Shown piece after piece: positions 11,161-41,720 of a DNA stretch of 64,000 nucleotides. Below the pieces are notes generated by a model. That model ran no database searches. It saw nothing but the letters and a program-made list of their open reading frames with translations, and had not been told where the DNA came from. The DNA is from Bacteroidota bacterium (GTDB taxonomy: Bacteria > Bacteroidota > Bacteroidia > 2-12-FULL-35-15). The position numbers were made by a program, and so were the translations under genes. Positions within the stretch are counted from its first letter, which is position 1; the number at the start of each line of letters is the position of its first letter. The stretch lies in contig JAJTCJ010000002.1 in NCBI GenBank assembly GCA_021323165.1, forward strand, positions 1 to 64,000, given 5' to 3'.

Positions 11161-11191
11161 ACCCACTTATTCCTGTATTCCTCCACTTATT
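11161..11191 (+). promoter_or_regulatory. Two direct repeats ACCCACTTATT / CTCCACTTATT with 20-bp period, putative regulator site
   Basis: 11161-11171 and 11181-11191; the core CCACTTATT is identical in both copies. A TTG lies at 11207 and TATATTCT at 11226 downstream. Confidence 0.55.
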
Positions 11192-15586: not shown

Positions 15587-16333
15587 TCATATCTTATTAA
15601 GTCGCTTAAGGAATTCTTCTTTTTTCCGTTGAGAGACATCTACAGTACTTCCGTCACTCATCAGAACATAACCTCCTCTTCCACTATAATATTGCTTGAT
15701 GAATCCCATATTAACTAAATGTGAATTATGTATCCTGATAAAATTATGCTCGCTTAAAAAATCTTCAAATTCTTTCAAATTTCTGCTTACAACTATTTTA
15801 CTTCCATTTACAAGATAACAGTTGGTGTATTTCCCATCAGCTTCACATCTTATCAGATCCTTTATTTCGATAAATACAAGTCCTGTTTGAGTAGTCAAAG
15901 CAAGCTTACCGCTATCATATTTTAAAGTATTATAATTTTTGCTTAATGCTTCTATGCTTGGATATTGATTTTCCTTTTTGTGCTTTTCCGCCTGTTTTAC
16001 AGCTCTGATCAATTCTTCCTCATCCACAGGTTTAAGAAGATAGTCGATGGCTGAAAATTTAAATGCCTTAACAGCATATTTATCATAAGCAGTAACAAAA
16101 ATCACTGAGAAATCAGGATTTTCAATTTCATTCAGAATATCAAATCCGGACCCGTTGGTTAATTCAATATCAAGAAACAGGAGGTCAGGATTTAGTTTAT
16201 TAATAAGCTCTAACGCCTGTTCTACAGAACTTGCTGTTTCGATGACGTTCACATTCGGACAATATTGTTTCAGCAATAGTTGAAGCAGTATCCTTCCATT
16301 CTTTTCATCATCAACAATTATTGCATTTATCAT
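15587..16333 (-). CDS. LytTR-family response regulator
   Basis: Receiver domain INAIIVDDEKNGRILL...LLFLDIELTNGSGFDIL...FVTAYDKYAVKAFKFSAIDYLLKPVDEEEL; LytTR domain IRCEADGKYTNCYLVNGSKIVVSRNLKEFEDFLSEHNFIRIHNSHLVNMGFIKQY. Confidence 0.96.
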   Translation of the reverse strand: MINAIIVDDEKNGRILLQLLLKQYCPNVNVIETASSVEQALELINKLNPDLLFLDIELTNGSGFDILNEIENPDFSVIFVTAYDKYAVKAFKFSAIDYLLKPVDEEELIRAVKQAEKHKKENQYPSIEALSKNYNTLKYDSGKLALTTQTGLVFIEIKDLIRCEADGKYTNCYLVNGSKIVVSRNLKEFEDFLSEHNFIRIHNSHLVNMGFIKQYYSGRGGYVLMSDGSTVDVSQRKKEEFLKRLNKI

Positions 16334-16336
16334 ATC

Positions 16337-19327
16337 CTATTTATTATCTGTTAAGGGTATTGAGATCGTAACCAAAGTTCCTTCCGACTTATTCTCCTGA
16401 TCAGTTTTATCGGTATACTTCACTTCAATGTTTGTATTCTTTAAATAATTAATGATTTTTACTCTCTCTTCTGTATTACTAATACCCATTGATACTCTTT
16501 TTTCAGAAGAATGTTTCTTCATTTCATAAGAACGGTTTCTACCAATACCATTATCTTCAACTTCGATCAACAGCATAGATGTTACTAGTTTAAATCTCAG
16601 ATCCAGGTTTCCACCTTTTTCTTTTGGCCACAAACCATGCTGAATGGCATTCTCCACAAAAGGCTGAAGTAGCATTGTCGGAATATCGATTTGATCGGTA
16701 TCAAGCTCCGGATCGATAAACATATGGAAACTAAAATTGTGATCAACTCTTAATTGCTCCAGCTCCACATAAGAGGTAATTAAATTTATTGCATCTGTTA
16801 AAGGCATAAAACTCGAGGTAGAATGTTCAAGTGAAAGCCTGATCAGTTTAGAAAACTTTCCTAGATATTTACTTGCTTCTTCTTTTTCATCAGTGGCAAT
16901 AAATAATTTTATCGAATTCAAGCAGTTGAAAATAAAATGAGGATTCATTTGTCCCTGCAGCGCTTTAAGTTCAAGGGCTGCATAATTTCTGTTGATCTCC
17001 GTTTTTTCTTCTTCTTTTTTTCTGATACTTTTAATACGATAATAATTAAAAAGAAGCAGTGCAGCAGTAAGAAATACACCTATAGCAATATAAAACGGAA
17101 GTGATTTCCAGAATGGAAACGGTATACCAAAAGATACCGTTACTTCTTTATTCATATTTACATTCACACTGCCATAAATCCTGACATGAAATTTATAACG
17201 ACCCGGAGGAAGACCAAGATAACTTGCTACTCTTAATGCAGTTGGATCACTCCATTCCTGATCCTTACCATCAAGCTTGTATTGAAAGAGAATGTTCTTG
17301 GATTCTGTAAAAAAAGGTGCTGTGAAATGAAACTCTATCTTTTTAATATTACGGGGAATTTCCAGTGAATCGGTTTTGAAATATTTTGTTTCATCAACAA
17401 TAATATTTTCAATTTTCAATTCAGGAATGTAAGAATTTTTTAAAAGTGCTGCAGGATCAACGATTGCAACACCCGCTAAGGTTGGGAACCAAATACGGCC
17501 TTTTTCATCCTTCATTCCTGCCGGATGAAACCCACCCGTACATTCTGAATTTTTCAATCCATTTTCTTTTCCGAAATGATGTGTGTTCAGGAATACAGTT
17601 TCACCATCAGCGTATCGGTTAAGATCATTTCGTTTAACTGAATAGATCCCATGATCAGTACTGATCCAAAATGTACCGTAATTATCTTCCACAATACAGG
17701 ATATAAATTCATCCATAAAATTTTTCGATGCATTGAATGCGAAGAATTTATTATCTGCGAATCTGCTTAAGCCGCCTCCATAAGTAGCTATCCACATTGT
17801 ACCTTCATCATCTTCATATATGTATCGTATATCATTATGCGAGAGGCCGTCTTCAATTGTATAGATCCGGGTATTTCCATTCTCGATCATACCAAGCCCG
17901 TTCTTTGAACAGAACCATATCCTTCCTTGTTTATCCTGAATGATCTGTTTGATCGTCCCAATTTCTTTATTACCGTAAGGATTGAACTTTCCATTTTTGT
18001 AAAGCATTAAACCGGCATCCGTCCCTGCCCATATATTTCCGTCATTACTTTGAAAAATACTGAATACAATATTAAAAGCAGGATTTGCATGCACCGGGAA
18101 ATGTTCAAATACACCGTTCTTATATCGATATAGAAAGTTGCCGTAAGTTCCTATCCACAGATAATTATCTTTGTCCTCCATGAGAGACCAGACACATCCT
18201 GTTGTTTTATCAAACTCGGAAAATTTATTATCCTTGAATTGAGTAATCCCCTGACAAAAATTAGTAATGAGAATCCGTTTGTCACTCGTCTTTAATATAG
18301 CTCCAACTACATCTGACAGCAACCCTTCAGAGGAAGAATAACTGTAAAAGGTTTTAGCTTGCATTTTACAGATACCTACATCCGATGTACCAACCCATAT
18401 ATTACCTTCAAGATCCTTATAAACAATTGAGAGATTATTCGATGACAAACCCGTTGCAGTACTGTAATGCTTGCTATTCGAGCCTTTTAGATGTGTTAAC
18501 CCTCGCTTTGTCGTGACCCAGATCTCATTTTCATTGACAGGAAAAAAATCTGTAAGAGCACTTTCTTTGAATACTGAAGAAGGAACAGCATATTGTTGAA
18601 AAACACCATTCTTTTTCAAGTAAATACCTTTATCAGTATAGATCCATACCTCCTGATCCTTACTTTTTCTTGTAAGCAAAATTTTTCCTTCAACACCGGG
18701 TATTAAACTAAAGGATCTGTTTTTATATTTATAAAGGCCTTCTGATGTTCCGATTAACAATGAGGAATCTTTCGCAGAAAATATTATCTTATTTAATGTT
18801 TTGCCCGCAGGTAATTTAAATTGATTAACGAATGTTTTATTCTTTAAATAGAATATCTCATTATCTTCAGTTCCAACCATTAAAGAACCTTCCTCATTAA
18901 GCTCAATAGTTTTAATTATTTTCTTTTCATTGTTATTTATATTTAAAGTTTCAAACGTTTCATTTTCATACTTAAAAAGTTTTCCGTTAATAGTTGAGAA
19001 CCACAAAACTCCTTTATTATCCTGCAGAATGTACTTAACACTATTATTAGCAATCCCGGGAGTGTTGGAAGTATTGTAAAGCTTAAATTCTTGTCCGTCA
19101 TATCTAAGCAAACCATTAAAAGTTGCTATCCATAAAAATCCATCTTTGGCCTGAAAGATCCGCATTATGGTATTCTGAGGAAGTCCGTTTTCGGAGTTCC
19201 AGGTTTCCACCACATAATTGGCATTAACCTGTAAACTCTTATCAGAAATAAGCGGTATTTGCCCTTTTCCACAAAGGGAGATAAAAATAAAAAAGACGAT
19301 AAATAAGTACGCTCGGTAGAAGGGCAT
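16337..19327 (-). CDS. Two-component regulator propeller (Reg_prop/Y_Y_Y) LytS-type histidine kinase
   Basis: WNSENGLPQNTIMRIFQAKDGFLWIATFNGLLRYDG repeats; Y_Y_Y domain; His_kinase motif LKALQGQMNPHFIFNCLNSIKLFI; HATPase DNGIGRN. Stop is 3 bp from the start of the response regulator gene. Confidence 0.96.
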   Translation of the reverse strand: MPFYRAYLFIVFFIFISLCGKGQIPLISDKSLQVNANYVVETWNSENGLPQNTIMRIFQAKDGFLWIATFNGLLRYDGQEFKLYNTSNTPGIANNSVKYILQDNKGVLWFSTINGKLFKYENETFETLNINNNEKKIIKTIELNEEGSLMVGTEDNEIFYLKNKTFVNQFKLPAGKTLNKIIFSAKDSSLLIGTSEGLYKYKNRSFSLIPGVEGKILLTRKSKDQEVWIYTDKGIYLKKNGVFQQYAVPSSVFKESALTDFFPVNENEIWVTTKRGLTHLKGSNSKHYSTATGLSSNNLSIVYKDLEGNIWVGTSDVGICKMQAKTFYSYSSSEGLLSDVVGAILKTSDKRILITNFCQGITQFKDNKFSEFDKTTGCVWSLMEDKDNYLWIGTYGNFLYRYKNGVFEHFPVHANPAFNIVFSIFQSNDGNIWAGTDAGLMLYKNGKFNPYGNKEIGTIKQIIQDKQGRIWFCSKNGLGMIENGNTRIYTIEDGLSHNDIRYIYEDDEGTMWIATYGGGLSRFADNKFFAFNASKNFMDEFISCIVEDNYGTFWISTDHGIYSVKRNDLNRYADGETVFLNTHHFGKENGLKNSECTGGFHPAGMKDEKGRIWFPTLAGVAIVDPAALLKNSYIPELKIENIIVDETKYFKTDSLEIPRNIKKIEFHFTAPFFTESKNILFQYKLDGKDQEWSDPTALRVASYLGLPPGRYKFHVRIYGSVNVNMNKEVTVSFGIPFPFWKSLPFYIAIGVFLTAALLLFNYYRIKSIRKKEEEKTEINRNYAALELKALQGQMNPHFIFNCLNSIKLFIATDEKEEASKYLGKFSKLIRLSLEHSTSSFMPLTDAINLITSYVELEQLRVDHNFSFHMFIDPELDTDQIDIPTMLLQPFVENAIQHGLWPKEKGGNLDLRFKLVTSMLLIEVEDNGIGRNRSYEMKKHSSEKRVSMGISNTEERVKIINYLKNTNIEVKYTDKTDQENKSEGTLVTISIPLTDNK

Positions 19328-19449: not shown

Positions 19450-19500
19450 ACTCGCCTATTCAATAATCTACTCACTTATTCTTAAAACAACTCACTAATG
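19450..19500 (+). promoter_or_regulatory. Three direct repeats with exact 20-bp period, putative LytTR-regulator site
   Basis: ACTCGCCTATT 19450-19460, ACTCACTTATT 19470-19480, ACTCACTAATG 19490-19500. TTG at 19514 and TAACTTTA at 19532 follow. Confidence 0.55.
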
Positions 19501-19638
19501 AAATGGTGAAAATTTGACCACATTTTACGGGTAACTTTAGAAGAAATTAAACTCTGATACTTAAACAATACTACGCCAATAATCTCTAAAAAAGTGATTC
19601 TGTTGGCATATTTTTTTTCGAATTTATTAATTAAAATA

Positions 19639-22600
19639 ATGACAAATCCATACAAGTCAGTAAAACAAACCCTTACTTTATTTTTCATCCTGATTACCCT
19701 GACCTCCAGCTCGGCAGTGTTTACAGGTGTTTATCAGGTAGGAAACTCTGCGCCATTATATACCAAGCTTAGCCAGGTAGCCGACTCTCTTTTTAATTCT
19801 ACTGTAACCGGTAATGTGATATTTGAGTTACAAGCAGACTATGACGGCTCAACTGGGGAAATTTTTCCCATATCATTCCGTCAGTATAATGTTTCAGGAG
19901 GCTCATGGACAGTTACTATCAGACCTGCAGCAGGAGTCACGGGTCGCATAACCTCCGGAGACCCGGGTTCAGGCTTACCTCTTATTCAATTTAATGGAAT
20001 TGATAATCTTATTCTTGATGGACGTGCCGGTGGGATAGGAAGCTCGGAGTGGACCATAAGAAACACACGAACACTTTCAGTCGTTGGTCCTGCTATTTCG
20101 CTTATTAATGATGCAACCTTTAATACTCTTAAATATCTTTCGATAGAAGGACAAAGTCCGGCAAGTACCGGACTTATTCTTTTTTCAACAAGTACCGGAA
20201 CAACAGGTAACAGCAACAACTCAATTAATTTTAATACTATTCATGACAGAACTGATGTGGCGGCCCCCCTTGGCATTGGGATCTATTCTGCAGGTTCTGT
20301 AACGGCAAGAAATAAAAACAACACTATAGATAATAATCACATTTATAACTGGAGTAATTTTGGCATCAACATAACTCCGACCGGTAATGGTGAAGGCTGG
20401 ACCATCAGCAACAATAATTTTTATAATACATTAAGTGCAAACACCAGCTCCCAAACTTCTATTCAATTCCTTGCAGGAGCCTCATCATTTTCCAATTTTA
20501 TCACATCTAATATCATTGGAGGTCAAACTGCAGGTGCATCAGGATCACCATGGATAAATTCATCCGCTGCAGCTTTTAACGGAATAATTGTTAACACGGG
20601 AATTTCCACTTCTACTGTTATTTCTAATAACGTGGTTAAGAATATCAATTTAACCAGTACAAGTATTGCAGCTTTTACCGGAATTTCATGCACCGCGGGA
20701 TCAGTAAACATACTTGATAATACAATCGGATCTTCAACCTCCTCAGATGGTATTTCATCAAGTGGTTCATCCACTGTTACAGGTATTAATATTTCCACAG
20801 CAGGAACTGCAGTTGTTCAAAATAATTACATTGGCAATCTGCTTTCTTCGGGACTAAGCACGGGTGCACAATTAAGAGGCATAGTAAGTTCAGGTACAGG
20901 TTCTTCTACTGTAAGTTCAAATACTATCACACAACTTTCCGGATCATCATCTTCAATAAGCAATACTACAGCAGCTTTATCAGGGATATACATTAACAGT
21001 GCTGCTGCATCACAGATCTATTCATTTAATTCCGTAAGCGGTTTACGATCATTAAATGGAACTGCAAATACAAATGTGCCTGCAATAACTATCAATAATG
21101 GAAGCGGCTTATTGCTTTCTAACAGGATCTTCGATATTTCAAATTCTTCCACAGGAACCAGCGCAGCCGTAATAGGAATTTATATTGGTACCGGTAACTG
21201 GGATTTAGTAAACAATATGATCTCCATTTCCAATTCGTTTGCGAATGATGTTTCAGTAAAAGGTATCTGGGATAATAACCCTTCAGGGGGCGATAATTAT
21301 TATTACAACACTATTTATATTTCCGGATCAGGAAATACTACTAACAGTACCTATGCTTTATTAAGAAGCGGGAACACATCAGTAAATATTAAAAATAATT
21401 TTCTTTATAATTCCCGCACCGGCACAATGAATTTTGCACTCGGGAATACTGCAGCTAATCCGGCTAATGGATGGCCGGCTGATGCTTCAAACAACAATTT
21501 TTTTGTCACAGCCCAGTCTTCAGTTGTTAACAACTGGAATAATTTAAGCGTATCATTTATAAACTGGAAAACCGAATCTCAATCAGATGTGTTTTCATAT
21601 TATTCTAACTCTGCTGCAATACCTTCTTCTGTATTCATTAATCCTGCTGCCGGAAATTTAAAGATCAATCCAACATTTGCGTCTGCAGCATCAAACCTTG
21701 AATCGCGAGGCAGAATCATTGCAGGATATACTACGGATTTCGAAAACGATGTTAGACCGGGACCTGCAGGATCTGTTAACGGAGGGGCATTCGCGCCTGA
21801 TATCGGAGCAGACGAATTTGATGGTGTACCATATATAAAAGATGTTGGAATAACTGCTCTTGCAGCTCCTTCTCCATTATCATGCCCTGGCTCATCTCAG
21901 CTTGTACAATTTACCCTGACCAACTTTGGACAGGCAATAAATCTTTCAACTGATAACATTACGATCAGCTCTTCAGTGACCGGTCCGAACGCACTTACTT
22001 TTTCTCCTGTTATTCTTAATTCGGGTACCCTGGCAGGCGGAGCAAGTATGACAATTACTGTTTCAGGTTCATACAATATGTCGGCCAGCGGAACTTATAC
22101 ATTTTATGCTAACTCAGTAGTTGCGGGCGACTCTTATATCAATAATGATTCTTTACCGCCTGTCTCAATCAGCTTGACACAAATTGTTACACTTCCTACG
22201 TCCGTAAGTTTCAGCGGTTATTCCGGATTAAATCTCAATACTGTTTTTCCTGACTGGATGGAATCATCCGGATTAACTCCAACAGGCAATACTTCTTTGT
22301 GGACCTCACAGGCTAACATGAACGCAGCAGGGAATACTTCTGCAAGGATCAATCTTTATTCTACTGGAAAAAGAGAATGGATCGTAGGCCCTAAATTTCA
22401 GGCTGGTCCAACCACAAAATTAAGATTCTCTGCTGCTGTTACCGCCAAAAACTCTGTTGTTACAGGAGCAACTATGGGATCTGATGATGCTGTTCAGGTA
22501 ATGTTATCTACCGATTGCGGTCAATCGTGGTTTCCTGTTTACACTATGAATAATCTTTCAAATTTACCTCTTCAGTTAACATCGCAGGTAGTACCTCTTG

Positions 22601-25600
22601 ATATGTATTCAGGACAACGCATTCTTGTTGCCTTTTATGCTACTGATGGTACAGTTGACAATATTGAAGATTATGATTTCCATATTGATAATGTTATCAT
22701 ATCCGATAATATAAATGGATTTGACCTTGGTGTTACAGCATTACTGAATCCCTTAACAACAGGGTGTTACAGCAGCAACGATACAATAAAAGTTACGCTC
22801 AGAAACTTCGGACCGGAAACAATCAATTTCGCTTCGGATAATGCAACTATTACGGCTAACGTGAACGGCCCATTGAATCAGGTGTTTACAAAAACACTTA
22901 ACTCTGGAACTATGGCGCCATGGTCAAGTATGACAGTGGTTGTTACTTCATCACTTAACCTTTCAACTCCTGGAACATACAGTATAGCAGCATATTCAAC
23001 TATTATTCCTGATTATGACTCAACCAACAATGCTATGGTTCCGCAGATCCGTACGAATTCATTTCCGATGACATTGCCTGACTACGTTGATTTTACAGGA
23101 TTTACAGGAGCTAACCTTTCTTCGGCATTTCCAAACTGGGAAGAAGCAACAGGCACAACACCAACAGGATCGACATCTTCATGGCTTTCTCAGACAGGAT
23201 TAAATTCTCCGGGAAATATTACAGCACGCGTAAATCTTTTAGGAACAACTAAAAGAGAATGGCTTGTAAGTAAAAAATTTGTTCCCACATCATCAACTCA
23301 ATTAAAGTTTTTTGCTGCAGTAACTAACGGAGGTTCTACAACTGTTGGCGATATTATGGGCTCAGATGATGCTGTAACTGTGATGATCTCAACCAATTGC
23401 GGGGTATCATGGTTCCCATCCTTCGCATTGAATGCTTCTAGCAATCTTTCAACCACTCTTCAGCCTTTCAGCGTTAACCTGGGAATGTATGCGGGTTCAG
23501 AGATCATGGTGGCATTTCTCGCAACTGATGGTCCTGTTGATAATGCAGAAACATATGATTTCCATCTGGATAATATTGAGATCCGCGATTTTCTTCCTAT
23601 CGACCTTGGTGCAAGAGTTCTTGTTTCTCCTGTTCCAAATGCGTGTACAGATAATTCTGAAACGATAGTTATCGGTATAAAGAATTTTGGTACTGACACA
23701 ATTGATCTGAGTATTACTTCTTTAAATCTTGGTGTTACAATTTCAGGTTCAAGTTCTCAAAGCTTTAACACTGTAGTTAATTCAGGTATCATTTATCCTG
23801 ATTCAGTTTTCAACGCAATTGCTACCACTTCTGCTAATTTCACTAACAGCGGTACACATGTTATTAATGCAACTGTTTCTATTGCTGGCGATGGAAACAA
23901 TTCAAATAACTCATTCATTTCCCCTGTTAATTATATAGCAACAACAGTTTCAAATTTTCCTTATACCGAAAGTTTTGAAACAACTGTAGCCGGCTGGTCA
24001 GTATCGCAGCTGGCAGGTACCGGTCAATGGAGTTATCTCAGCGGAGGAGGAACAAATCCTACGCTTTCTCCATTCAACGGATCAAAGATGGCTTTTTTTA
24101 ATTCGAATGCAAATACATTTGCAGGGGCAGTTTCACGTCTTACAACATCTTGTCTTAATTTGTCGAACCTTAATTCACCGCGACTTGAATTTTATTTATC
24201 ACAGAATAATTCATATCAATTTAACAAAGACAGTTTATTCGTTGTTGTTTCAACAGATGCGGGACTTACATGGAGCCAGAGCCTTTTATCTGTATCCCGA
24301 TACAACTCGACTTATTCAACACCGGGCTGGAAAAAGTTCTCAGTGTGCCTTGATCAATATGCAGGAATGCCGGGAATCAAGATAGGTTTCATCGCTAAGA
24401 GCGCATTCGGATCCAACATTTTTCTTGATGCTGTAACTATTTCAGAAACGCCTCAGCCTGTTTCAGGATTCATTAGTTCATCAGCGAACCTTCTTTGTGG
24501 TGGAATGAATACATTCCTGAATCTTTATTCATATTCAGGTAATATTCAGTGGCAGCAATCTGCAGATAATATCACATTCTATAATATCGCGGGAGCAACT
24601 CTTGATACTCTTACTTCACCTGCCATATCCGATACAACCTATTTCAGAGTGATAACAAGCATTAATAGTGTTTGTGTTGCAACGGACAGCTCTGCATCTA
24701 TCCAGGTTGATGTATTACCGGCACCTCAGATCGCACTTGGTTCTGATACTGTTATATGTGCAAACAATTATTTGCTGGATGCAGGTCCGCAAAATGCAGG
24801 AACAAGCTTTCAGTGGAATGATGGAAGCAGCGCTCAAACGCTTCTTGCAACTACATCAGGACAATATTATATTGTGGGAACGTCTCAATTTTTCTGTCAG
24901 ACAAGAGACACGATCAACATAACATTTAAGACACCTGTAGTTTTGAATGCAAGTCCGGATCAGACAATTTGCGAAGGTGATAACACTATACTTTCTGCAA
25001 CAGGCGGTTTCTCATATTTATGGAATACATCAGAAACTACAAGCTCTGTAATTGTTAATCCTCTTTCAGATTCCATTTATACTGTAACGGCTTTCGGCAC
25101 AAATGGATGCACTGCTACCGATTCTATAATAGTATATGTAAATCAAAATCCCATCGTTGATCTGGGAGCTGATACAACCTTATGCGGAGGTTCTCTGGTT
25201 CTTAACGGAGGTTCAGCTTCTAACACATATAACTGGAGTAATGGTGCTACAACACCTTCAATTAATGTTAGTTCTGGCGGACAATATTTTGTTGAAGCAA
25301 CATCAATAAATGGATGTATCTCTTCAGATACTATCATAGTTTCAATTTCTCCTGCCGTGACTGTTAATCTTGGAAGTGATATCAATCAGTGCGGTGGAAA
25401 TGTAACTTTAAATGCTGGTAATCCTGGTTCTTCATATAACTGGAGCAATGGATCTGTCAGCCAGACTATCGTAGTAAATTCCTCAGGAACTTATTACACA
25501 GCAGTTACAAACTCATCAGGATGTTCCGATACAGATACTATTCAGGTAACAATAAATCCAAATCCTGTTGTTGATCTCGGAGCTGATATTCAATCGTGCT

Positions 25601-26682
25601 CATCATCTGTAAACTTAACAACATCTGCATCCGGCAACTATATCTGGAATACAGGAGCTACGACATCTGGAATAACAGTGAATACCTCAGGAACATATTC
25701 TGTTTCGGTTGATCTGAATGGCTGTGTTGTATCCGATACGATCAGTGTAATTATTTCTAATCCTCCTTTCGTTAATCTTGGAGCAGATATTCAATCATGC
25801 AGCTCATCAATAATACTCGATGCCGGAAACAGCGGATCCATGTTCTTATGGAATACAGGTGCAACAGGACAAACATTAACGGTGATAACGAGCGGAACTT
25901 ATTTTGTTAACGTAACAGCATCAGGCGGCTGTACTGTTGCCGATTCTATATTGGTTACTATCAATCCAACAGTGGCTGCCAATGCCGGCCCGGACCTTTC
26001 GGTTTGCAGCGGAAATTCTGTTCAGCTTTCAGCAAGCGGTGGAACAAATTATTTGTGGAATAACACATTATCGGGAGCGAATATAACTGTAACACCTGTT
26101 AGTGATACTATCTTCACAGTAGTTGTAACTGATATAAATGGATGTACAGGGACCGACCAGCTGAATGTTTTTGTAAATGAAGGTCCCACTTCTGTTTTTA
26201 GTGTTTTTGCAGCAGGCACATCAATTACTACGAATAATAATTCACTTAATGCAAATTCAGTTGTCTGGGATTTCGGTGACGGTTCTGCATTTAATACCTC
26301 TTTTGCTCCATCACACACTTATATGTCGAATGGAACTTATGTGATCAGTCTGATAACAAGTAATAGCTGCGGTACTGATACTGCAACTTATGTGCTCAGT
26401 GTTGTAGGCACTGAAGAAGAAGAACTGCTTTCTAATTCAGTGAAGCTATTCCCTGTTCCAACATCAGGAATATTAAATGCGGAGATCTCGGCAGGTTTAT
26501 TCTCCACGATTTCCATAAAGTTAATTACACCTGACGGCCGTCTTATCGATGAGAAAAACTTTAGCGATACTTCAGCAGTCTCTGCTTCATTCGACCTTAC
26601 AGAATTATCCTCAGGAATATATTTCATGCAGATCTCTAACGAGAGAACGATCGTTAATAAAAAGATAATACTTCAAAAATGA
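19639..26682 (+). CDS. Giant T9SS type A-sorted adhesin: beta-helix region, choice-of-anchor/jelly-roll-like domains, about 69-aa Ig-like repeats, PKD
   Basis: Start at MTNPYKSVKQTLTLFFILITLTSSSA (signal peptide); DGRAGGIGSSEWTI parallel-beta-helix-like region; VDLGAD..LC... repeats; PKD-like VVWDFGDGSAFNTSFAPSHTY; C-terminal VKLFPVPTSGILNAEIS...LSSGIYFMQISNERTIVNKKIILQK. Confidence 0.9.
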   Translation: MTNPYKSVKQTLTLFFILITLTSSSAVFTGVYQVGNSAPLYTKLSQVADSLFNSTVTGNVIFELQADYDGSTGEIFPISFRQYNVSGGSWTVTIRPAAGVTGRITSGDPGSGLPLIQFNGIDNLILDGRAGGIGSSEWTIRNTRTLSVVGPAISLINDATFNTLKYLSIEGQSPASTGLILFSTSTGTTGNSNNSINFNTIHDRTDVAAPLGIGIYSAGSVTARNKNNTIDNNHIYNWSNFGINITPTGNGEGWTISNNNFYNTLSANTSSQTSIQFLAGASSFSNFITSNIIGGQTAGASGSPWINSSAAAFNGIIVNTGISTSTVISNNVVKNINLTSTSIAAFTGISCTAGSVNILDNTIGSSTSSDGISSSGSSTVTGINISTAGTAVVQNNYIGNLLSSGLSTGAQLRGIVSSGTGSSTVSSNTITQLSGSSSSISNTTAALSGIYINSAAASQIYSFNSVSGLRSLNGTANTNVPAITINNGSGLLLSNRIFDISNSSTGTSAAVIGIYIGTGNWDLVNNMISISNSFANDVSVKGIWDNNPSGGDNYYYNTIYISGSGNTTNSTYALLRSGNTSVNIKNNFLYNSRTGTMNFALGNTAANPANGWPADASNNNFFVTAQSSVVNNWNNLSVSFINWKTESQSDVFSYYSNSAAIPSSVFINPAAGNLKINPTFASAASNLESRGRIIAGYTTDFENDVRPGPAGSVNGGAFAPDIGADEFDGVPYIKDVGITALAAPSPLSCPGSSQLVQFTLTNFGQAINLSTDNITISSSVTGPNALTFSPVILNSGTLAGGASMTITVSGSYNMSASGTYTFYANSVVAGDSYINNDSLPPVSISLTQIVTLPTSVSFSGYSGLNLNTVFPDWMESSGLTPTGNTSLWTSQANMNAAGNTSARINLYSTGKREWIVGPKFQAGPTTKLRFSAAVTAKNSVVTGATMGSDDAVQVMLSTDCGQSWFPVYTMNNLSNLPLQLTSQVVPLDMYSGQRILVAFYATDGTVDNIEDYDFHIDNVIISDNINGFDLGVTALLNPLTTGCYSSNDTIKVTLRNFGPETINFASDNATITANVNGPLNQVFTKTLNSGTMAPWSSMTVVVTSSLNLSTPGTYSIAAYSTIIPDYDSTNNAMVPQIRTNSFPMTLPDYVDFTGFTGANLSSAFPNWEEATGTTPTGSTSSWLSQTGLNSPGNITARVNLLGTTKREWLVSKKFVPTSSTQLKFFAAVTNGGSTTVGDIMGSDDAVTVMISTNCGVSWFPSFALNASSNLSTTLQPFSVNLGMYAGSEIMVAFLATDGPVDNAETYDFHLDNIEIRDFLPIDLGARVLVSPVPNACTDNSETIVIGIKNFGTDTIDLSITSLNLGVTISGSSSQSFNTVVNSGIIYPDSVFNAIATTSANFTNSGTHVINATVSIAGDGNNSNNSFISPVNYIATTVSNFPYTESFETTVAGWSVSQLAGTGQWSYLSGGGTNPTLSPFNGSKMAFFNSNANTFAGAVSRLTTSCLNLSNLNSPRLEFYLSQNNSYQFNKDSLFVVVSTDAGLTWSQSLLSVSRYNSTYSTPGWKKFSVCLDQYAGMPGIKIGFIAKSAFGSNIFLDAVTISETPQPVSGFISSSANLLCGGMNTFLNLYSYSGNIQWQQSADNITFYNIAGATLDTLTSPAISDTTYFRVITSINSVCVATDSSASIQVDVLPAPQIALGSDTVICANNYLLDAGPQNAGTSFQWNDGSSAQTLLATTSGQYYIVGTSQFFCQTRDTINITFKTPVVLNASPDQTICEGDNTILSATGGFSYLWNTSETTSSVIVNPLSDSIYTVTAFGTNGCTATDSIIVYVNQNPIVDLGADTTLCGGSLVLNGGSASNTYNWSNGATTPSINVSSGGQYFVEATSINGCISSDTIIVSISPAVTVNLGSDINQCGGNVTLNAGNPGSSYNWSNGSVSQTIVVNSSGTYYTAVTNSSGCSDTDTIQVTINPNPVVDLGADIQSCSSSVNLTTSASGNYIWNTGATTSGITVNTSGTYSVSVDLNGCVVSDTISVIISNPPFVNLGADIQSCSSSIILDAGNSGSMFLWNTGATGQTLTVITSGTYFVNVTASGGCTVADSILVTINPTVAANAGPDLSVCSGNSVQLSASGGTNYLWNNTLSGANITVTPVSDTIFTVVVTDINGCTGTDQLNVFVNEGPTSVFSVFAAGTSITTNNNSLNANSVVWDFGDGSAFNTSFAPSHTYMSNGTYVISLITSNSCGTDTATYVLSVVGTEEEELLSNSVKLFPVPTSGILNAEISAGLFSTISIKLITPDGRLIDEKNFSDTSAVSASFDLTELSSGIYFMQISNERTIVNKKIILQK

Positions 26683-27080
26683 AAAATTTAAAAGCTGTAA
26701 TTAAGTGTGCGTTAGTTATTGCAGCCATGGCATTTTCATCAGAAAAAGCCCAAGCACAAAAACTTATTCTTGATCCACCTACCATGGAAAGAACTGTTTA
26801 TGAGAACCAGCAAAAACGACTTCGTCCGTTTGATGGCATCCTTGAAAAACATGTTTACAAGATTAACAAGATCAGTGGTAAAAGCCGTGAAAACCTTTTT
26901 GCTGAGATCAAAAAAAACAATCACGTTTCAACAGTAAATTCTGAAGATGATGCTATTATTATTTGGGTAAATAAAAGTGAGATGAAAGACGCTTCATACA
27001 TTCTGGGTCCCGCATTCGATGCTCATAAGGTCCCAATCATCAGTCATTATGTATTATTTTATTTAAAGGACAATCAATAG
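26679..27080 (+). CDS. Small exported protein of unknown function, translationally coupled within the adhesin operon
   Basis: ATGA overlap with the upstream gene; signal peptide MKNLKAVIKCALVIAAMAFSSEKAQAQ; no T9SS C-terminal domain; no family recognised. Confidence 0.8.
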   Translation: MKNLKAVIKCALVIAAMAFSSEKAQAQKLILDPPTMERTVYENQQKRLRPFDGILEKHVYKINKISGKSRENLFAEIKKNNHVSTVNSEDDAIIIWVNKSEMKDASYILGPAFDAHKVPIISHYVLFYLKDNQ

Positions 27081-27097
27081 TGAACCAAAAAATAAAA

Positions 27098-30000
27098 ATG
27101 AAGAAATTTATATCTATACTTTCTTTAACAGCAATACTGTTTTTTCACAAGTCATTGGTGACGTATGGCCAGTGCGGATCTACTCCTGCATCAGACCTTT
27201 GTATTAATGCTCCTTATATTTGTGATCTTAATGGATATTGCGGAACAACTTCTGGATATACTGCTGGCGCACCTACCACTCTCTGCAGTTTTAATATAGA
27301 AAATAATTCATTTATATCATTCATTGCAATTCAGTCAACTGTTTCTTTTACAGCAACAGTTGGGACTTGCAGTAACAACAATGGTATTCAAATGGTTGTG
27401 CTACAAACAACAGATTGCAATACATTCAATATTGTTTCGAACTGCGCAAATTCAGTTGCGACCAGCGCAGTTATAACAGCTTCAGGTTTAACACCTGGGC
27501 AACAATACTATTTAATGATTGATGGATATGCCGGTGATATTTGTACATACACAATTAATTCTGCTATTGGTGTTGGCACTTGCTGCCCTGTTGTTCCTAA
27601 CGCTGGTGCTGATGTTGAAATCTGTGCGGGTGACAGCACAACTCTTACAGCAAGCGGAGGAATTTCCTATTTGTGGACTCCGGGTAACTTTACCACTCAA
27701 TCGATCACTGTAAGTCCATCTTCAACTACTAAATATATTGTTGACGTTGCAAATGATACCTGCTCGAAAAAAGACAGTGTAATGGTCTTTGTGAATGCTT
27801 TGCCAAGTGTAGATGCAGGAGCTTCTGCTTCTATTTGTGCTGGTGATTCCGCAAATTTATCAGCTGTAACATTATCCAATTTAACTTACAATATACCCTT
27901 GAGTTTTGATAATCCGATCAGGTATCCGATCAATAATATAGATACTACGTATTCACCTTTGGTGATATCAGGAATTTCAGGTCCGGTGAGTGCCGGATCA
28001 ATTGTTTCAGTATGTATCAATTTAACTCATCCAAGTGATGCAGATCTTGATATCTTTTTGATATGTCCAAATGGAACAGCCCTTGAATTAAGCACTGATA
28101 ATGGTGGTACAGGGGATAATTATATATCCACATGCTTCACATCAACTGCTTCACAGCAGATCACAGGAATGTCGGCTCCGTTCACCGGAAATTTTCAGCC
28201 AGAAAGTAATGCAGGATTTACTGCATTGACAGGATGTTCTGCTAATGGAACCTGGCAGTTAGCTGTTTATGATGACGCTTCCAGCAACATAGGATCAATA
28301 GAAAGCTGGAGTATGACTATCAATAATCCGGTTAACGATACAGCAATGAATAATATCTGGACTCCTTCATCAGGACTTTCAGCAACAAACATTAATAATC
28401 CAATTGCATTTCCATCAGCCACTACAACTTATTATTTAACAGGTACCAATTCAAAAGGGTGCAGCAAAACCGATTCAGTACTTGTTACTGTAAATCCTTT
28501 ACCGGTGATCAACGCTGGAGCAGACGATACTATTTGTGCAGGAAGCAATGTTACATTGAATGGCTCAGGCGGAGTTAACTACAGTTGGTCCCCTTCTCTT
28601 GGTCTAAATGATTCGACTCTTTCGAATCCTGTTGCGAGTCCTTCTTCAACTACAACATATTATTTAAAAGGAACAAGTGCAGCGGGCTGTGTTAATTATG
28701 ATTCTGTAACAATCATGGTAAATACATATCCTGTTTTGAATGCAGGAACAGATAAGAATATATGTGCTGGAGATTCTATTCAGCTTATTGCCACAGGAGG
28801 AGTGACATATAACTGGTTACCTGTGACCGGCCTGAGTAGCAGCTCTATTGCTAATCCAAAAGCTTCACCAGCAACATCAATGACTTATACTGTAACAAGT
28901 AATAATTCAGGCTGCGTAAGTACAGACAGTATATTAGTAAATGTTAATTTTGTTTCAGCCTATGCAGGAAATGATACAATCATATGTGCAGGAAGTGTTG
29001 CCTCATTAAACGCATCAGGCGGAACATATTATAGCTGGCTGCCTGTCACGGGCTTATCCTCGGATACAGTGTCCGATCCCGATGCTTCACCTTCTACTAC
29101 CACAACTTATACCGTAACTGCAGTGGCTGGACAATGTTCTGCTGTGGATTCAATTGTTATTACAGTGAATCAGTTGCCGGTAATTATTGCAGGAATTGAT
29201 GCAACTATATGTTTTGGCGACAGCGTTGTGTTATCAGCATCAGGTGCATCTTCATATAGCTGGATACCTTCAGCGGGATTAAATAATTCCTCAATATCAA
29301 ATCCGATCGCTTCACCAGTTAATACAATGGCTTATACTGTTACCGGAACTGATGTCAATGGATGTTCTGCTTCGGATGCAGTAACGATAAATATTAACCC
29401 GCTTCCGATAATAAATGCCGGTAATGATGTTTCCATTTGTCAGGGAACTTCGGTTACATTGAACGCAACAGGATCCCCTACTCTTGTGTGGTTTCCTGCT
29501 GCAGGATTATCATCTACCACAATTCCTTCCCCGGTTGCAAATCCGCTGATAACTACTAACTACATAGTAACCGCAACTTCTGCAAATGGATGTACAGATA
29601 AAGATACTGTGGTAGTCACAGTATATAATTCAACCTTAAATACAACTTCAAACATTGTGAATTCAAGCTGTTTTGGCAGCGACAATGGAAGTGCATCATT
29701 AACAGTTGCAGGAGGAAGCGGAACGTATGATTATTCATGGTTTCCCGGAGGATATAACGCAGCAAACGTGAATAACCTTGGTGCAGGAACGTATACTATC
29801 AGCATCGTGGATGTTATTACTTCCTGCAAAGATACATCAGTTGTAACGATCAATCAACCACCCGATTTTGCTCCTCATACAGGAGCAGTGAATGCAACCT
29901 GCGGTGATGCTAATGGTGTTGCAATTGCTAATGTAACAGGACCTTCTACTTATACGTATTCATGGAATACAATGCCTGTTCAGAATACACAATCAGCAGT

Positions 30001-30589
30001 AAATCTTCTGCCGGGAGTCTATGTAGTTACAGTAAGCGATGCATTTAATTGTACAAAAACTGACACAGTGGTTATTTACAGTATTGATAACCTGAGTGCA
30101 TCTTTTTCTCCATCAGTTACCGAAGGTATTTCGCCACTGAATGTCTTCTTTACCAACAATTCAAATGGAGCAAATAATTATAGCTGGTCATTCGGGGATT
30201 CACAAACTTCTTCCGCATTTGAACCTTCACATGTTTTTACAGGCTCAGGATCTTATACTGTTGTCCTGATCGCTTCGAATGCTACTTGTCTTGATACAGC
30301 TGAATATACAATAGTTGTTGAGGAGGAACTTGAATATATTCTTCCGAATGTTTTTACTCCTAATGGTGACCAAAAAAATGACATTTTCACATTGAACGGA
30401 GGAGGAATGAAAAATTTTAACGGAGCCATCTTTAATCGTTGGGGTAAAAAAATATATGAATGGAATGATCCTAAAGGTGGATGGAACGGAGAAAATCAAC
30501 CTGACGGAGTTTACTATTATACAATTGAATTCAAAGTTGATTCAGGCGAATTAAAAACACTTACAGGATACGTGAATCTTCTCAGATAA
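27098..30589 (+). CDS. Giant adhesin with Ig-like repeats, P-domain, SprB-like and PKD domains; gliding-motility-type (type B) C-terminal domain
   Basis: MKKFISILSLTAILFFHKSLVTYGQ signal peptide; C-terminal LPNVFTPNGDQKNDIFTLNGGGMKNFNGAIFNRWGKKIYEWNDPKGGWNGENQPDGVYYYTIEFK. Confidence 0.92.
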   Translation: MKKFISILSLTAILFFHKSLVTYGQCGSTPASDLCINAPYICDLNGYCGTTSGYTAGAPTTLCSFNIENNSFISFIAIQSTVSFTATVGTCSNNNGIQMVVLQTTDCNTFNIVSNCANSVATSAVITASGLTPGQQYYLMIDGYAGDICTYTINSAIGVGTCCPVVPNAGADVEICAGDSTTLTASGGISYLWTPGNFTTQSITVSPSSTTKYIVDVANDTCSKKDSVMVFVNALPSVDAGASASICAGDSANLSAVTLSNLTYNIPLSFDNPIRYPINNIDTTYSPLVISGISGPVSAGSIVSVCINLTHPSDADLDIFLICPNGTALELSTDNGGTGDNYISTCFTSTASQQITGMSAPFTGNFQPESNAGFTALTGCSANGTWQLAVYDDASSNIGSIESWSMTINNPVNDTAMNNIWTPSSGLSATNINNPIAFPSATTTYYLTGTNSKGCSKTDSVLVTVNPLPVINAGADDTICAGSNVTLNGSGGVNYSWSPSLGLNDSTLSNPVASPSSTTTYYLKGTSAAGCVNYDSVTIMVNTYPVLNAGTDKNICAGDSIQLIATGGVTYNWLPVTGLSSSSIANPKASPATSMTYTVTSNNSGCVSTDSILVNVNFVSAYAGNDTIICAGSVASLNASGGTYYSWLPVTGLSSDTVSDPDASPSTTTTYTVTAVAGQCSAVDSIVITVNQLPVIIAGIDATICFGDSVVLSASGASSYSWIPSAGLNNSSISNPIASPVNTMAYTVTGTDVNGCSASDAVTININPLPIINAGNDVSICQGTSVTLNATGSPTLVWFPAAGLSSTTIPSPVANPLITTNYIVTATSANGCTDKDTVVVTVYNSTLNTTSNIVNSSCFGSDNGSASLTVAGGSGTYDYSWFPGGYNAANVNNLGAGTYTISIVDVITSCKDTSVVTINQPPDFAPHTGAVNATCGDANGVAIANVTGPSTYTYSWNTMPVQNTQSAVNLLPGVYVVTVSDAFNCTKTDTVVIYSIDNLSASFSPSVTEGISPLNVFFTNNSNGANNYSWSFGDSQTSSAFEPSHVFTGSGSYTVVLIASNATCLDTAEYTIVVEEELEYILPNVFTPNGDQKNDIFTLNGGGMKNFNGAIFNRWGKKIYEWNDPKGGWNGENQPDGVYYYTIEFKVDSGELKTLTGYVNLLR
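27881..28326 (+). other. Proprotein-convertase P-domain (subdomain of the 27098-30589 protein)
   Basis: VSVCINLTHPSDADLDIFLICPNGTALELSTDNGGTGDNY...GTWQLAVYDDASSNIGSIESWSMTI. Confidence 0.7.
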
Positions 30590-33500
30590 TGTTTAGAATT
30601 TATAAAATATCATTTCTTGTATTATTGGCAACGATGGCTTTTTTCAATAAAGCCGAGGCTTGCCATGGAACTGATCTTGTAAATATCAACGGAGTGCTTT
30701 CAGGCGGTAATCTTATTATTAATGCAGAATCTGATGCAGCTACGTGTGGATGTGATCCATACAGTTTTGAAATTGAATTAACATGTATAAGCTCTGCTTT
30801 TACAGGTTCAGCAACTCATTTTTCTGCTTCAATGGTTAAGTCAGGCTGTAACCAGGAACCTTATCCGACATTGATAATTCCTGTAGGCTCTTTATGTCCA
30901 GGCACAACATATAAATGGAGAGCCCGTGAACATGTTATGGGAGTTACCCCTGATGATCCTTACGGACCATGGTCTGTAATTTTCACTTTCACAACACCCG
31001 GTATCATAACACCTATAACTTTAAGTGCAACTGCCAGCCCGGCTGCTATTTGCATACCTAACTCATCAACATTAACGGCAAATGCCTCTGGCGGTTGCGG
31101 AAGCGGATATGTTTATTCCTGGGACAGCGGACTAGGTTCTGGAAGCTCTGTAACTGTTTCACCAACTGTAACCACAACATACAATGTAACAGTTACAGAT
31201 CAATGTTCCGGGTTTTCTCAAACAGTACCTGTTACTGTAACAGTGGGCCAGGCTCCGAATGGCGGTATGGCTGTAGCATCGCCTTCATCAGTCTGCGCAG
31301 GGGGCAGCACAACAATTACACTATCTTCATATAATGGTAATATCCAATGGCAAACGGCTCCCGGCCCTGTAGGTCCATGGACCAATGCCCCCGGAGCTAA
31401 TACACCAACATTCACACTTGGTCCTTTAAGTGCTACAACATTTGTAAGGGTACTTGTTACAGGAACTTGCGGAGGATCTGTATTCTCAAACACATTGGTT
31501 GTTCAGGTAATACCTAAACCAACAGTTACTGTAAATAATGCATCTGTTTGTGAAGGCCAGACTGCAACAATAACCGCAACTCCTTCTGCAGGTAGTGGAT
31601 CTTATGCATGGTCTAATTCAGCGACAACGCAAAGCATCTTAGTAACACCTTCTGTCACCACCAATTATTCGGTAATTTATACACTAAACGGATGTGCAAG
31701 TGATCCGGCAACTTCAACTGTAACGGTGAAGCCTAAGCCAATAGTTTCAATTCCTCCGGCTACTATCTGTGCAGGAGAAACCACAGTATTGCAATCTACA
31801 TCTAATCCTGCTGGAGGAAATACTGTCTGGTCTACAGGACAGGCAGGTACCTCAATAAGTGTTAGTCCTGTTTCAAATACAACTTACTACGCTTTAAATA
31901 CTTTAAATGGTTGCACCAGCGATACATCATTTGTTGCTGTAGCCGTTAAACCAATTCCTGTAATTTCAATTTCTGACACATCAATTTGTACTGGAAATAC
32001 AATTACATTAAATAGCAGTGTGTCGATACCCGGAGGGAACTACTCCTGGACTCCATCCGGTTCATCATCCTCTTCGTTAACTGTTTCCCCGCTTACAACT
32101 ACAACATATACACTTTCTTATTCCGTTAATGGCTGCAACGCTATTCCTGAAGATGTAACTGTAACTGTTAATGATTATCCGGTGATCACAATTGCAGACC
32201 AAACTATTTGTGAAGGACAATCAGCAACTCTTACTGCAGTTCCCGATATTTCCGGAGGTACATTTTTGTGGAACAATTTATCAACTGCAAATAGTATAAT
32301 TGTCAGTCCGAGCCTTACAACAACTTACTCTGCAACCTACACAGTTAACGGATGTACGAGTTCAACAGAAACAGCATTGGTGACAGTAAATGCTATTCCT
32401 CAGGTTACTGTAAACAATGCGACTATATGTCTTGGTCAATCTGTAACACTTACTGCAAATCCTGACATTTCAGGAGGGTCATTTTTATGGCAGCCGGGAA
32501 ATGAAACTACATCAACCATTAATGTTTCTCCTTTAACTACCTCAACATATAGCGTTACTTATACTTTAAATGGTTGTCCAACGACTACAACAGCTACAGT
32601 TACTGTAAACTTTTTATCCGGTGTTTCTGCAGGAAACGATGTATCAATTTGTCCCGGAGATTCCGTTCTCCTCAGTGCCACAGGAGCAAATAATTATGTG
32701 TGGTCAAATGGCTCAACAAACTCTTCAATCTCGGTTAGCCCTTTAGTTACCACTCCTTATTACTTAACCGGATCATCAGGTGCTTGTTCTGGTTTGGATA
32801 CAGTTGTTGTGAATGTTATTCCGGCAATAATTCTTTCAAGTTCTGAAACTCACATCCTGTGTAAAGGCTTTTGCACTGGCGAAATTAATGTGAGTGCTTC
32901 CGGGGGAATCGGACAACTTAATTACTTCTGGACTAATAATGTTTCGAGCACATCATCGGCATTTAATCTTTGTTCAGGAGTATATGACGTTATCGTGACT
33001 GACTCACTAGGCTGCGTTGATTCTCTATCAGTGACTATCAATGAACCATCAGAACTTAATCACAGTTTTACGGTCGACTCAACAAGTTGTTTTGGTGCAT
33101 GTGATGGAAGTGCAAATGTTATAGTAAACGGAGGCACGCCCCCTTATAATTATTTATGGCAAAATGGTGATACAGGAACTTTAGCAGATCATCTTTGCAG
33201 CGGAAATGTTACTTTAACAATAACAGATGACAATAATTGCGCAGTCAATACGGATACAGTTATCTATCAGCCAACTCAGCTAAATGCGTTTGTTTCACCA
33301 TCAGATACATTAATGTGTATTGGATCATCAACGACACTTAATTCAAGTGCTTCAGGAGGAATCGCTCCATATACCTATCAATGGTCTAACGGTTCAACCT
33401 TATCTTCTACTAATGTTTCGCCTGTAATTAATACGCAATATTCCCTGAATATTTCTGATGCTAATGGATGTACTTCTGCTTTAGTTTTTGCTGATGTAAA

Positions 33501-34527
33501 CGTAAGAGATTCGATAAAAGTTTTTGAAAATCATCCGATAGAAATTTGTTCTGGTTCCTCAGCCGTATTAAGTGCAAATGCTATCGGAGGAGATGGTCAA
33601 TATAACTTTTCCTGGCAGCCGGGTTCTTATACCGGTTCTCAAATTACGGTAACTCCATCACTCAGCACAACATATACTTTAACAGTTACAGATGGATGCG
33701 CAACTCCTTCGGTTAGTCACATTTTCACATTGTACGTTGTACCTGCGCCAACAGTAAATTTCACTACTGATACAGCTTTTGTATGTGCTAATGAATGTAT
33801 AATTTTTACAGATGCATCGGTAGTTCAGCCAGGATCTGTAAATACTTATAACTGGACTTTTAGTGATGGATCTTCAGATACAGGGACACAGATCCAGAAA
33901 TGTTTTCCTGAAGCAGGAACTTTTGATGTTAGCCTGAATGTTACATCAAACAATGGATGCAGCTCTACGCTTACAATTAATAATGCTGTTACATCAGGAG
34001 CGGTACCTGAAGTAAATTTCACTTACACACCTGAAAACCCAACAGATATTGAACCAATAGTGACTTTTCAAAACACTTCGCTTTATTCTGATACATGGAC
34101 CTGGAACTTCGGTGATGGAAGTATTTTGTCTTCTGATCAAAATCCTATACATACATACTCTGACACAGGTATTTATTGCGTTACCCTGCATGCTTCAAAC
34201 ATGCAGGGTTGTAATGACTCATCTTACAAATGTCTGAGAGTAGAGCCGGAAATGACTGTTTATATTCCTAACTCATTTACACCGGATGGAGATTCGCACA
34301 ATGAAATATTCAAAGTTATTATGTCAGGTGCGGAAATAGAATATTTTGAAATGAGAATATTTAACCGCTGGGGTAATCAGCTTTATTTTTCCAATGACCC
34401 TTTGGCAGGTTGGGATGGTAAAGGAGAAGAGGGTAATGGGATCGACACATTTGTTTATCGGGTGATAATCAAAGATATTAAGGGATATGAACGTGAGTAT
34501 TTAGGTCACGTTAATATTATAAGGTAA
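30589..34527 (+). CDS. Giant adhesin with tandem Ig-like repeats, SprB-like repeats and PKD domains; type B (gliding motility-associated) C-terminal domain
   Basis: TAATG 1-bp overlap with upstream gene; signal peptide; SprB-like ITLSSSETHILCKGFCTGEINVSASGGIGQLNYFW...; PKD TWTWNFGDGSILSSDQNPIHTYSDTG; YIPNSFTPDGDSHNEIFKV...FNRWGNQLYFSNDPLAGWDGKGEEGN. Confidence 0.92.
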   Translation: MFRIYKISFLVLLATMAFFNKAEACHGTDLVNINGVLSGGNLIINAESDAATCGCDPYSFEIELTCISSAFTGSATHFSASMVKSGCNQEPYPTLIIPVGSLCPGTTYKWRAREHVMGVTPDDPYGPWSVIFTFTTPGIITPITLSATASPAAICIPNSSTLTANASGGCGSGYVYSWDSGLGSGSSVTVSPTVTTTYNVTVTDQCSGFSQTVPVTVTVGQAPNGGMAVASPSSVCAGGSTTITLSSYNGNIQWQTAPGPVGPWTNAPGANTPTFTLGPLSATTFVRVLVTGTCGGSVFSNTLVVQVIPKPTVTVNNASVCEGQTATITATPSAGSGSYAWSNSATTQSILVTPSVTTNYSVIYTLNGCASDPATSTVTVKPKPIVSIPPATICAGETTVLQSTSNPAGGNTVWSTGQAGTSISVSPVSNTTYYALNTLNGCTSDTSFVAVAVKPIPVISISDTSICTGNTITLNSSVSIPGGNYSWTPSGSSSSSLTVSPLTTTTYTLSYSVNGCNAIPEDVTVTVNDYPVITIADQTICEGQSATLTAVPDISGGTFLWNNLSTANSIIVSPSLTTTYSATYTVNGCTSSTETALVTVNAIPQVTVNNATICLGQSVTLTANPDISGGSFLWQPGNETTSTINVSPLTTSTYSVTYTLNGCPTTTTATVTVNFLSGVSAGNDVSICPGDSVLLSATGANNYVWSNGSTNSSISVSPLVTTPYYLTGSSGACSGLDTVVVNVIPAIILSSSETHILCKGFCTGEINVSASGGIGQLNYFWTNNVSSTSSAFNLCSGVYDVIVTDSLGCVDSLSVTINEPSELNHSFTVDSTSCFGACDGSANVIVNGGTPPYNYLWQNGDTGTLADHLCSGNVTLTITDDNNCAVNTDTVIYQPTQLNAFVSPSDTLMCIGSSTTLNSSASGGIAPYTYQWSNGSTLSSTNVSPVINTQYSLNISDANGCTSALVFADVNVRDSIKVFENHPIEICSGSSAVLSANAIGGDGQYNFSWQPGSYTGSQITVTPSLSTTYTLTVTDGCATPSVSHIFTLYVVPAPTVNFTTDTAFVCANECIIFTDASVVQPGSVNTYNWTFSDGSSDTGTQIQKCFPEAGTFDVSLNVTSNNGCSSTLTINNAVTSGAVPEVNFTYTPENPTDIEPIVTFQNTSLYSDTWTWNFGDGSILSSDQNPIHTYSDTGIYCVTLHASNMQGCNDSSYKCLRVEPEMTVYIPNSFTPDGDSHNEIFKVIMSGAEIEYFEMRIFNRWGNQLYFSNDPLAGWDGKGEEGNGIDTFVYRVIIKDIKGYEREYLGHVNIIR

Positions 34528-34571
34528 AACGAAAAATAAAATCCAAGAATAATTAATTTAAATAAACCAAA

Positions 34572-41689: not shown

Positions 41690-41720
41690 AAAGCCCGGTT
41701 AAATTAACCGGGCTTTTTTA
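41690..41720 (+). terminator. Rho-independent terminator of the adhesin operon
   Basis: AAAGCCCGGTTAA / TTAACCGGGCTTT plus T tract. Confidence 0.85.

Follow-up and report, generated by a model that had tools for sequence, protein, structure and literature searches.

Tandem LytTR boxes as a probable activator site for a 22-kb adhesin operon in Bacteroidota

Pairs of a propeller/Y_Y_Y histidine kinase and a LytTR response regulator are common in Bacteroidota, and for such pairs neither a target nor an operator turned up in the open-access papers searched. LytTR operators made of direct repeats are already known; the analysis here generalises them across Bacteroidia. In Streptococcus mutans, binding and activation by HdrR have been demonstrated experimentally, and HdrR/BrsR-type sites (ACCTCTTAG-12 bp-ACCACTTAA and ACCACTTAT-12 bp-ACCGCTTAT) consist of direct repeats of the word ACC[AG]CTTAT, 11 to 12 bp apart, with the -10 box 40 to 42 bp from the last repeat by our own count from the published table (PMC6193735). 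The array described below, which lies in the 64,000-nucleotide stretch analysed here (the window), resembles these sites but differs in having three boxes of the diverged word ACTC[AG]CTTATT and a -7 box without a -35/-33 element. It also stands beside a full two-component kinase and an adhesin target of the type IX secretion system (T9SS), whereas HdrR/BrsR-type systems consist of a membrane inhibitor pair with autoregulation.

Other described systems share part of this design. AgrA of Staphylococcus aureus (P2/P3) has direct repeats centred near -60, and its DNA-contact motif FhRhH(R/N)S corresponds to FIRIHNS in the window's regulator (PMC4227749), although AgrA has another word, two boxes and a quorum-sensing system. 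YpdA/YpdB and BtsS/BtsR of Escherichia coli join a PF06580-type kinase to a LytTR regulator, with two phased direct repeats of 21-bp period for YpdB (PMC4847170, PMC5552118); unlike here, they have a 5TM sensor instead of a periplasmic propeller, and transporter targets. In Bacteroides, LRS-like operons also carry LytTR repeats before a -7 box, TATCTTTG (PMC6193735, Table 3), but these are 11-bp repeats of another word (TCCGG...), the LytTR protein is membrane-bound, the distance to the -7 box is about 3 bp longer and the operon is autoregulated. PorX/PorY-SigP of Porphyromonas gingivalis is likewise a two-component control tied to the T9SS (PMC4800418); it acts on the secretion machinery via an ECF sigma factor, whereas the control proposed here would reach exported adhesins via a sigmaA-type promoter.

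The features of the locus are given below, with conservation taken from a footprint of three species: the window genome, G016 (locus L073) and G002 (locus L074).

11162 to 11191, plus strand: copy set 1, upstream of the PNGase F-like gene at 11288; a canonical-type LytTR box pair with 20-bp phase
15587 to 16333, minus strand: LytTR response regulator with receiver D55 and LytTR motif FIRIHNS (PF00072 and PF04397)
16337 to 19327, minus strand: propeller histidine kinase (Reg_prop, Y_Y_Y, PF06580 with PHFIFN)
19450 to 19460, plus strand: predicted LytTR box 1, ACTCGCCTATT; ACTCG and the 20-bp phase are retained in L073 and L074
19470 to 19480, plus strand: predicted LytTR box 2, ACTCACTTATT, the best conserved box; 19470 to 19483 are 93% identical across the three species
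19490 to 19500, plus strand: predicted LytTR box 3, promoter-proximal, ACTCACTAATG; ACTC[AG]C is retained in L073 and L074
19532 to 19539, plus strand: predicted sigmaA -7 box, TAACTTTA, conserved in the orthologs and at a fixed offset
19639 to 26682, plus strand: first giant adhesin gene, with a T9SS tail (Por_Secre_tail)
26679 to 41684, plus strand: remaining adhesin operon genes (133, 1169, 1312 and 2370 aa), overlapping or closely spaced
41690 to 41716, plus strand: terminator-like hairpin closing the adhesin operon

The residues and domains of a two-component system (PHFIFN, D55, PF00072 and PF04397) are all present, and the operon is a nearly gapless 22-kb run of T9SS-type adhesins with CHU_C/Por_Secre_tail domains, whose five-gene order is identical in G016. 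Both related species retain the divergent order adhesin, kinase, regulator: the regulator orthologs (84% identical in G016, 81% in G002) adjoin the same boxes, and the first adhesin (66% and 65% identical, respectively) is divergent from the kinase. The mechanical open reading frame of the first adhesin begins at GTG 19594, and a signal-peptide-like stretch directly follows ATG 19639, which is most likely the start in place of the GTG. On the other side of the regulator, G016 carries (L073, 11125 to 20676) a 2861-aa SprB-repeat protein with a CHU_C tail and a PorP/SprF gene, both absent from the window's locus.

The first-pass annotation had placed three 11-mers with an exact 20-bp phase in the divergent intergenic region that separates the kinase from the first adhesin gene, followed by a TTG at 19514 and TAACTTTA at 19532, and all of these were found where it put them. 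The kinase starts on the minus strand at ATG 19327. The box starts (19450, 19470 and 19490) give a period of exactly 20 bp. Known LytTR operators have at least two direct repeats of 9 to 11 nt, 11 to 13 bp apart (a period of about 20 to 22 bp); here there are three 11-mers, with a 9-nt core and an 11-bp spacer. Compared to ACC[AG]CTTAT, box 2 (CTCACTTAT) is two letters off and boxes 1 and 3 are further off. The word of this array, copy set 2, is an ACTC[AG]CTTATT subtype whose core CRCTTATT is common to it and to the CCACTTATT boxes described below.

Within the window alone, the phased triple is only modestly unusual. Single 11-mers of the box kind number 5 against 4.1 expected, not rarer than chance, and dinucleotide shuffles of the intergenic region gave P = 0.027 for a phased triple of any period from 12 to 35 bp and P = 0.002 for a period of 20/21 bp. 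Chance repeats without function would fit the former value, and some look-alikes elsewhere do represent chance or other elements (L010, L146 and a coding repeat in G080/G119/G289), yet such an origin is extremely improbable in view of the conservation of the boxes, the spacing enrichment, the fixed -7 offset and the repeated LytTR linkage. Phylogenetic footprinting, which the first-pass annotation had proposed, recovered all three boxes in L073 and L074 with both 20-bp steps exact. The block from 19468 to 19497 shows 77% three-way identity (80% in the best 30-bp stretch, 30% outside the promoter region), and no other part of the intergenic region is as well conserved as the repeats and their phase. 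Because this block is the most conserved intergenic stretch in three species, the repeats are genuine, and the cross-species footprint in practice refutes a chance origin. The -7 box is retained as well, as TAACTTTA in the window and TAAATTTA and TAATTTTA in the orthologs. The intergenic region of L074 (6170 to 6991) exceeds the window's by about 500 bp and includes a further copy of the repeat block, now decayed (TTTAACTCAATATTCTTGAAGCAAATG), which suggests a tandem duplication.

We then used a sequence profile built from 11 sites, none of them from this genome or its adhesin orthologs. Its best match in the window was copy set 1 (E = 1.9e-5), followed by copy set 2 (E = 0.0094), whose alignment extended through the -7 box; genome-wide, set 1 again ranked first and set 2 only sixth (E = 1.45), indicating that set 2 is a diverged member. 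Profile sites also lie 11 to 50 bp past LytTR genes in G052, G118, G034 and G070, none of which contributed to the profile, and all 20 fetched matches from five genomes are intergenic. Several of these precede TonB-, ExbB- or TonB-receptor-like genes, as judged by sequence inspection and not by a Pfam scan. Matches stand, also by inspection, before ExbB/TolQ-like genes (L286 and L294) and a TonB-like gene (L279), which suggests that LytTR systems in other families may also control TonB/ExbB-type functions.

The -7 box TAACTTTA agrees with the Bacteroidota consensus TAnnTTTG, with A as its last letter. When offsets were measured from the first base of the last YCACTTATT-type 9-mer, 11 of 19 sites (9 of 15 independent ones) had TAnnTTTR 40 or 41 bp away; it stood at none of the roughly 40 further offsets examined, and 2000 shuffles gave 3 sites at most. 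At the adhesin promoter box 3 sets this 40/41-bp distance, within the 40 to 42 bp that separate the last repeat from the -10/-7 box of LytTR operators. Since Bacteroidota -7 boxes span -12 to -5 (PMC9723704), a box at 19532 predicts a transcription start near 19544; given that start, boxes 1, 2 and 3 would have their first bases at about -94, -74 and -54, with the last pair centred near -59. Two earlier readings of this promoter did not hold. As a -33 element, the TTG at 19514 is too close (15 bp before the -7 box) and is absent in L073 and L074; the promoter has no recognisable TTTG/TTG element of this kind, and in Flavobacterium the -33 motif is a weak one (PMC7366714). Nor is the spacing like that before the PNGase F-like gene, where no TAnnTTTR lies at the matching offset and the nearest candidate is TATATTCT at offset 43.

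The same geometry bears on autoregulation of the kinase-regulator pair, which the first-pass annotation had considered possible. A repressor site, or an operator with a second role in controlling the kinase and regulator genes, would suit the divergent intergenic position, and autoregulation is common in LytTR regulatory systems (PMC6193735). However, the fixed -7 distance is one-directional and points solely toward the adhesin gene, the boxes precede rather than overlap a promoter without a -33 box, and in other systems (L141, L142, L182, L275 and L287) the promoter follows the 3' end of the regulator gene and is directed away from that gene. We consider this arrangement quite unlikely.

Copy set 1 had been described as the same motif, and here the two sets part. 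Set 1 carries the canonical word ACC[AG]CTTAT, is conserved before PNGase F-like orthologs in G003, G010, G019, G026 and G036, and tracks a second regulator type, represented by C126. Among PNGase F-like orthologs in the genus, the site is present in 5 of 6 cases with that regulator (counted as present at 50% identity or more to the query) vs 1 of 13 without (P = 0.003). Two genomes depart from this pattern: G036 has the site but lacks such a regulator, and G017 has the regulator but lacks the site. The C126 regulator is 65 to 70% identical to three CCACTTATT-linked regulators and 54% identical to the window's, and the two closest relatives with a window-type regulator have no PNGase F-like gene. 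On the basis of co-occurrence, the more likely reader of set 1, a sister subtype, is the paralogous C126-type regulator, and that of set 2 is the window's own. As the genome encodes ten LytTR domains, another LytTR protein could bind set 2, and the boxes might be read mainly by a paralog such as C126, or by both, so that the adjoining pair would not be the main controller; the kinship of C126 to the CCACTTATT-linked regulators and the CRCTTATT core of set 2 speak for this. We regard it as unlikely, in that no regulator other than the window's and its two orthologs was seen next to the ACTC[AG]CTTATT subtype.

Similar arrangements recur elsewhere in Bacteroidia. At L080, L082 and L086, kinase-regulator pairs whose regulators are 51 to 57% identical to the window's are divergent from a T9SS-tailed gene, and the intervening region carries CCACTTATT boxes phased at 20/21 bp. 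A search of 119 genomes gave 8 occurrences of the exact pair CACTTATT-N12-CACTTATT, one of them set 1 of the window, vs 0 for the reversed control. Box pairs searched at 31 spacings in 396 Bacteroidia genomes gave 64 matches vs 42 for the control (manual count); once nine matches from one coding repeat were excluded, 5 had a period of 20 and 11 a period of 21, vs about 1.3 per other spacing, and 3 of these 16 fall in ORFs or a minisatellite. With the minisatellite left out, 12 of 14 phased matches are intergenic vs 5 of 20 others (P = 0.0013). Three-box arrays are common (L080, L136, L141, L142 and L143), the genes downstream of phased matches are often T9SS-exported, and LytTR genes are recurring neighbours. 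In about 20 species, members of a further LytTR orthogroup are accompanied by three phased boxes, with a conserved TAATATTG the same distance away. That the boxes belong to another transcription factor family and are linked to LytTR genes by chance is very improbable, given these neighbours and a word, phase and distance equal to those of characterised LytTR sites of other phyla.

Several candidates were set aside: the L010 repeat, which resembles an MraZ operator; the G080/G119/G289 matches, a coding repeat (HLLYGGFHL); L146, a minisatellite; and the EamA (C90) and C17 look-alikes, which have no -7 box at the right offset. A home-genome regulon from mismatched pairs was likewise abandoned, as matches with up to 3 mismatches were not above the reversed control. 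At two other LytTR loci of the closest groups (G010 and G019), the kinase's own intergenic region contained no boxes.

Direct control of the adhesin operon by the adjoining LytTR regulator, as the first-pass annotation had suggested, has good support from synteny, from the conserved footprint, from promoter geometry and from the occurrence of such boxes next to other LytTR regulators. We consider it likely that the tandem LytTR boxes, probably read by the regulator at 15587 to 16333, activate the sigmaA promoter of the adhesin operon. The repeats, their conservation and phase, the -7 distance, the LytTR linkage of such promoters and the conserved operon are observed directly; beyond them, we infer protein binding, positive regulation, phosphorylation dependence and the identity of the regulator. 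In the proposed mechanism, the propeller kinase (16337 to 19327) would phosphorylate this regulator, which would bind the boxes on one helix face, two turns apart. From the promoter-proximal pair, centred near -59, the regulator would then recruit sigmaA RNA polymerase to a promoter with its -7 box at 19532 and without a recognisable -33 box, switching on the 22-kb operon of T9SS-exported adhesins; the third box may add cooperativity.

With evenly balanced confidence, we further propose a widespread Bacteroidia class of LytTR promoter, with two or three boxes at 20/21 bp and a sigmaA -7 box at 40/41 bp, that propeller-type LytTR systems would use for T9SS-exported surface proteins and envelope functions, and in which duplicated regulators would split the box word (ACC[AG]CTTAT vs ACTC[AG]CTTATT) into insulated circuits in one genome. 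Such a rule of word, phase and -7 offset would make target genes predictable from sequence and tie propeller-LytTR systems to T9SS adhesins as well as to further envelope proteins. A genome with two box subtypes and two regulator groups would also offer a natural experiment on specificity following duplication.

At L171 (G000:C80, 1370 to 1800), immediately 3' of a different LytTR regulator, three phased ACC-type boxes and TAATATTG are followed by a hairpin RNA with an invariant 19-mer, TTGGCACATGGGGATGTTG, and a membrane ORF of about 40 aa. This box-hairpin-ORF arrangement also occurs at L173, L179, L180 and L295 to L316, in about 22 genomes of the genus. The hairpin at L171 and its relatives had no credible Rfam match, and its structure is only suggested, since covariation is weak (3 of 21 pairs); it may represent a novel leader or small RNA controlled by a LytTR regulator. 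At L318, L319 and L321 (G001:C31 and G034:C1), the loop word, differing from the 19-mer at one position, forms the tip of different, longer hairpins, and it may therefore be a shared RNA recognition motif. At L180 (7178 to 8400), the box array, hairpin and small ORF occur twice in tandem past one LytTR regulator.
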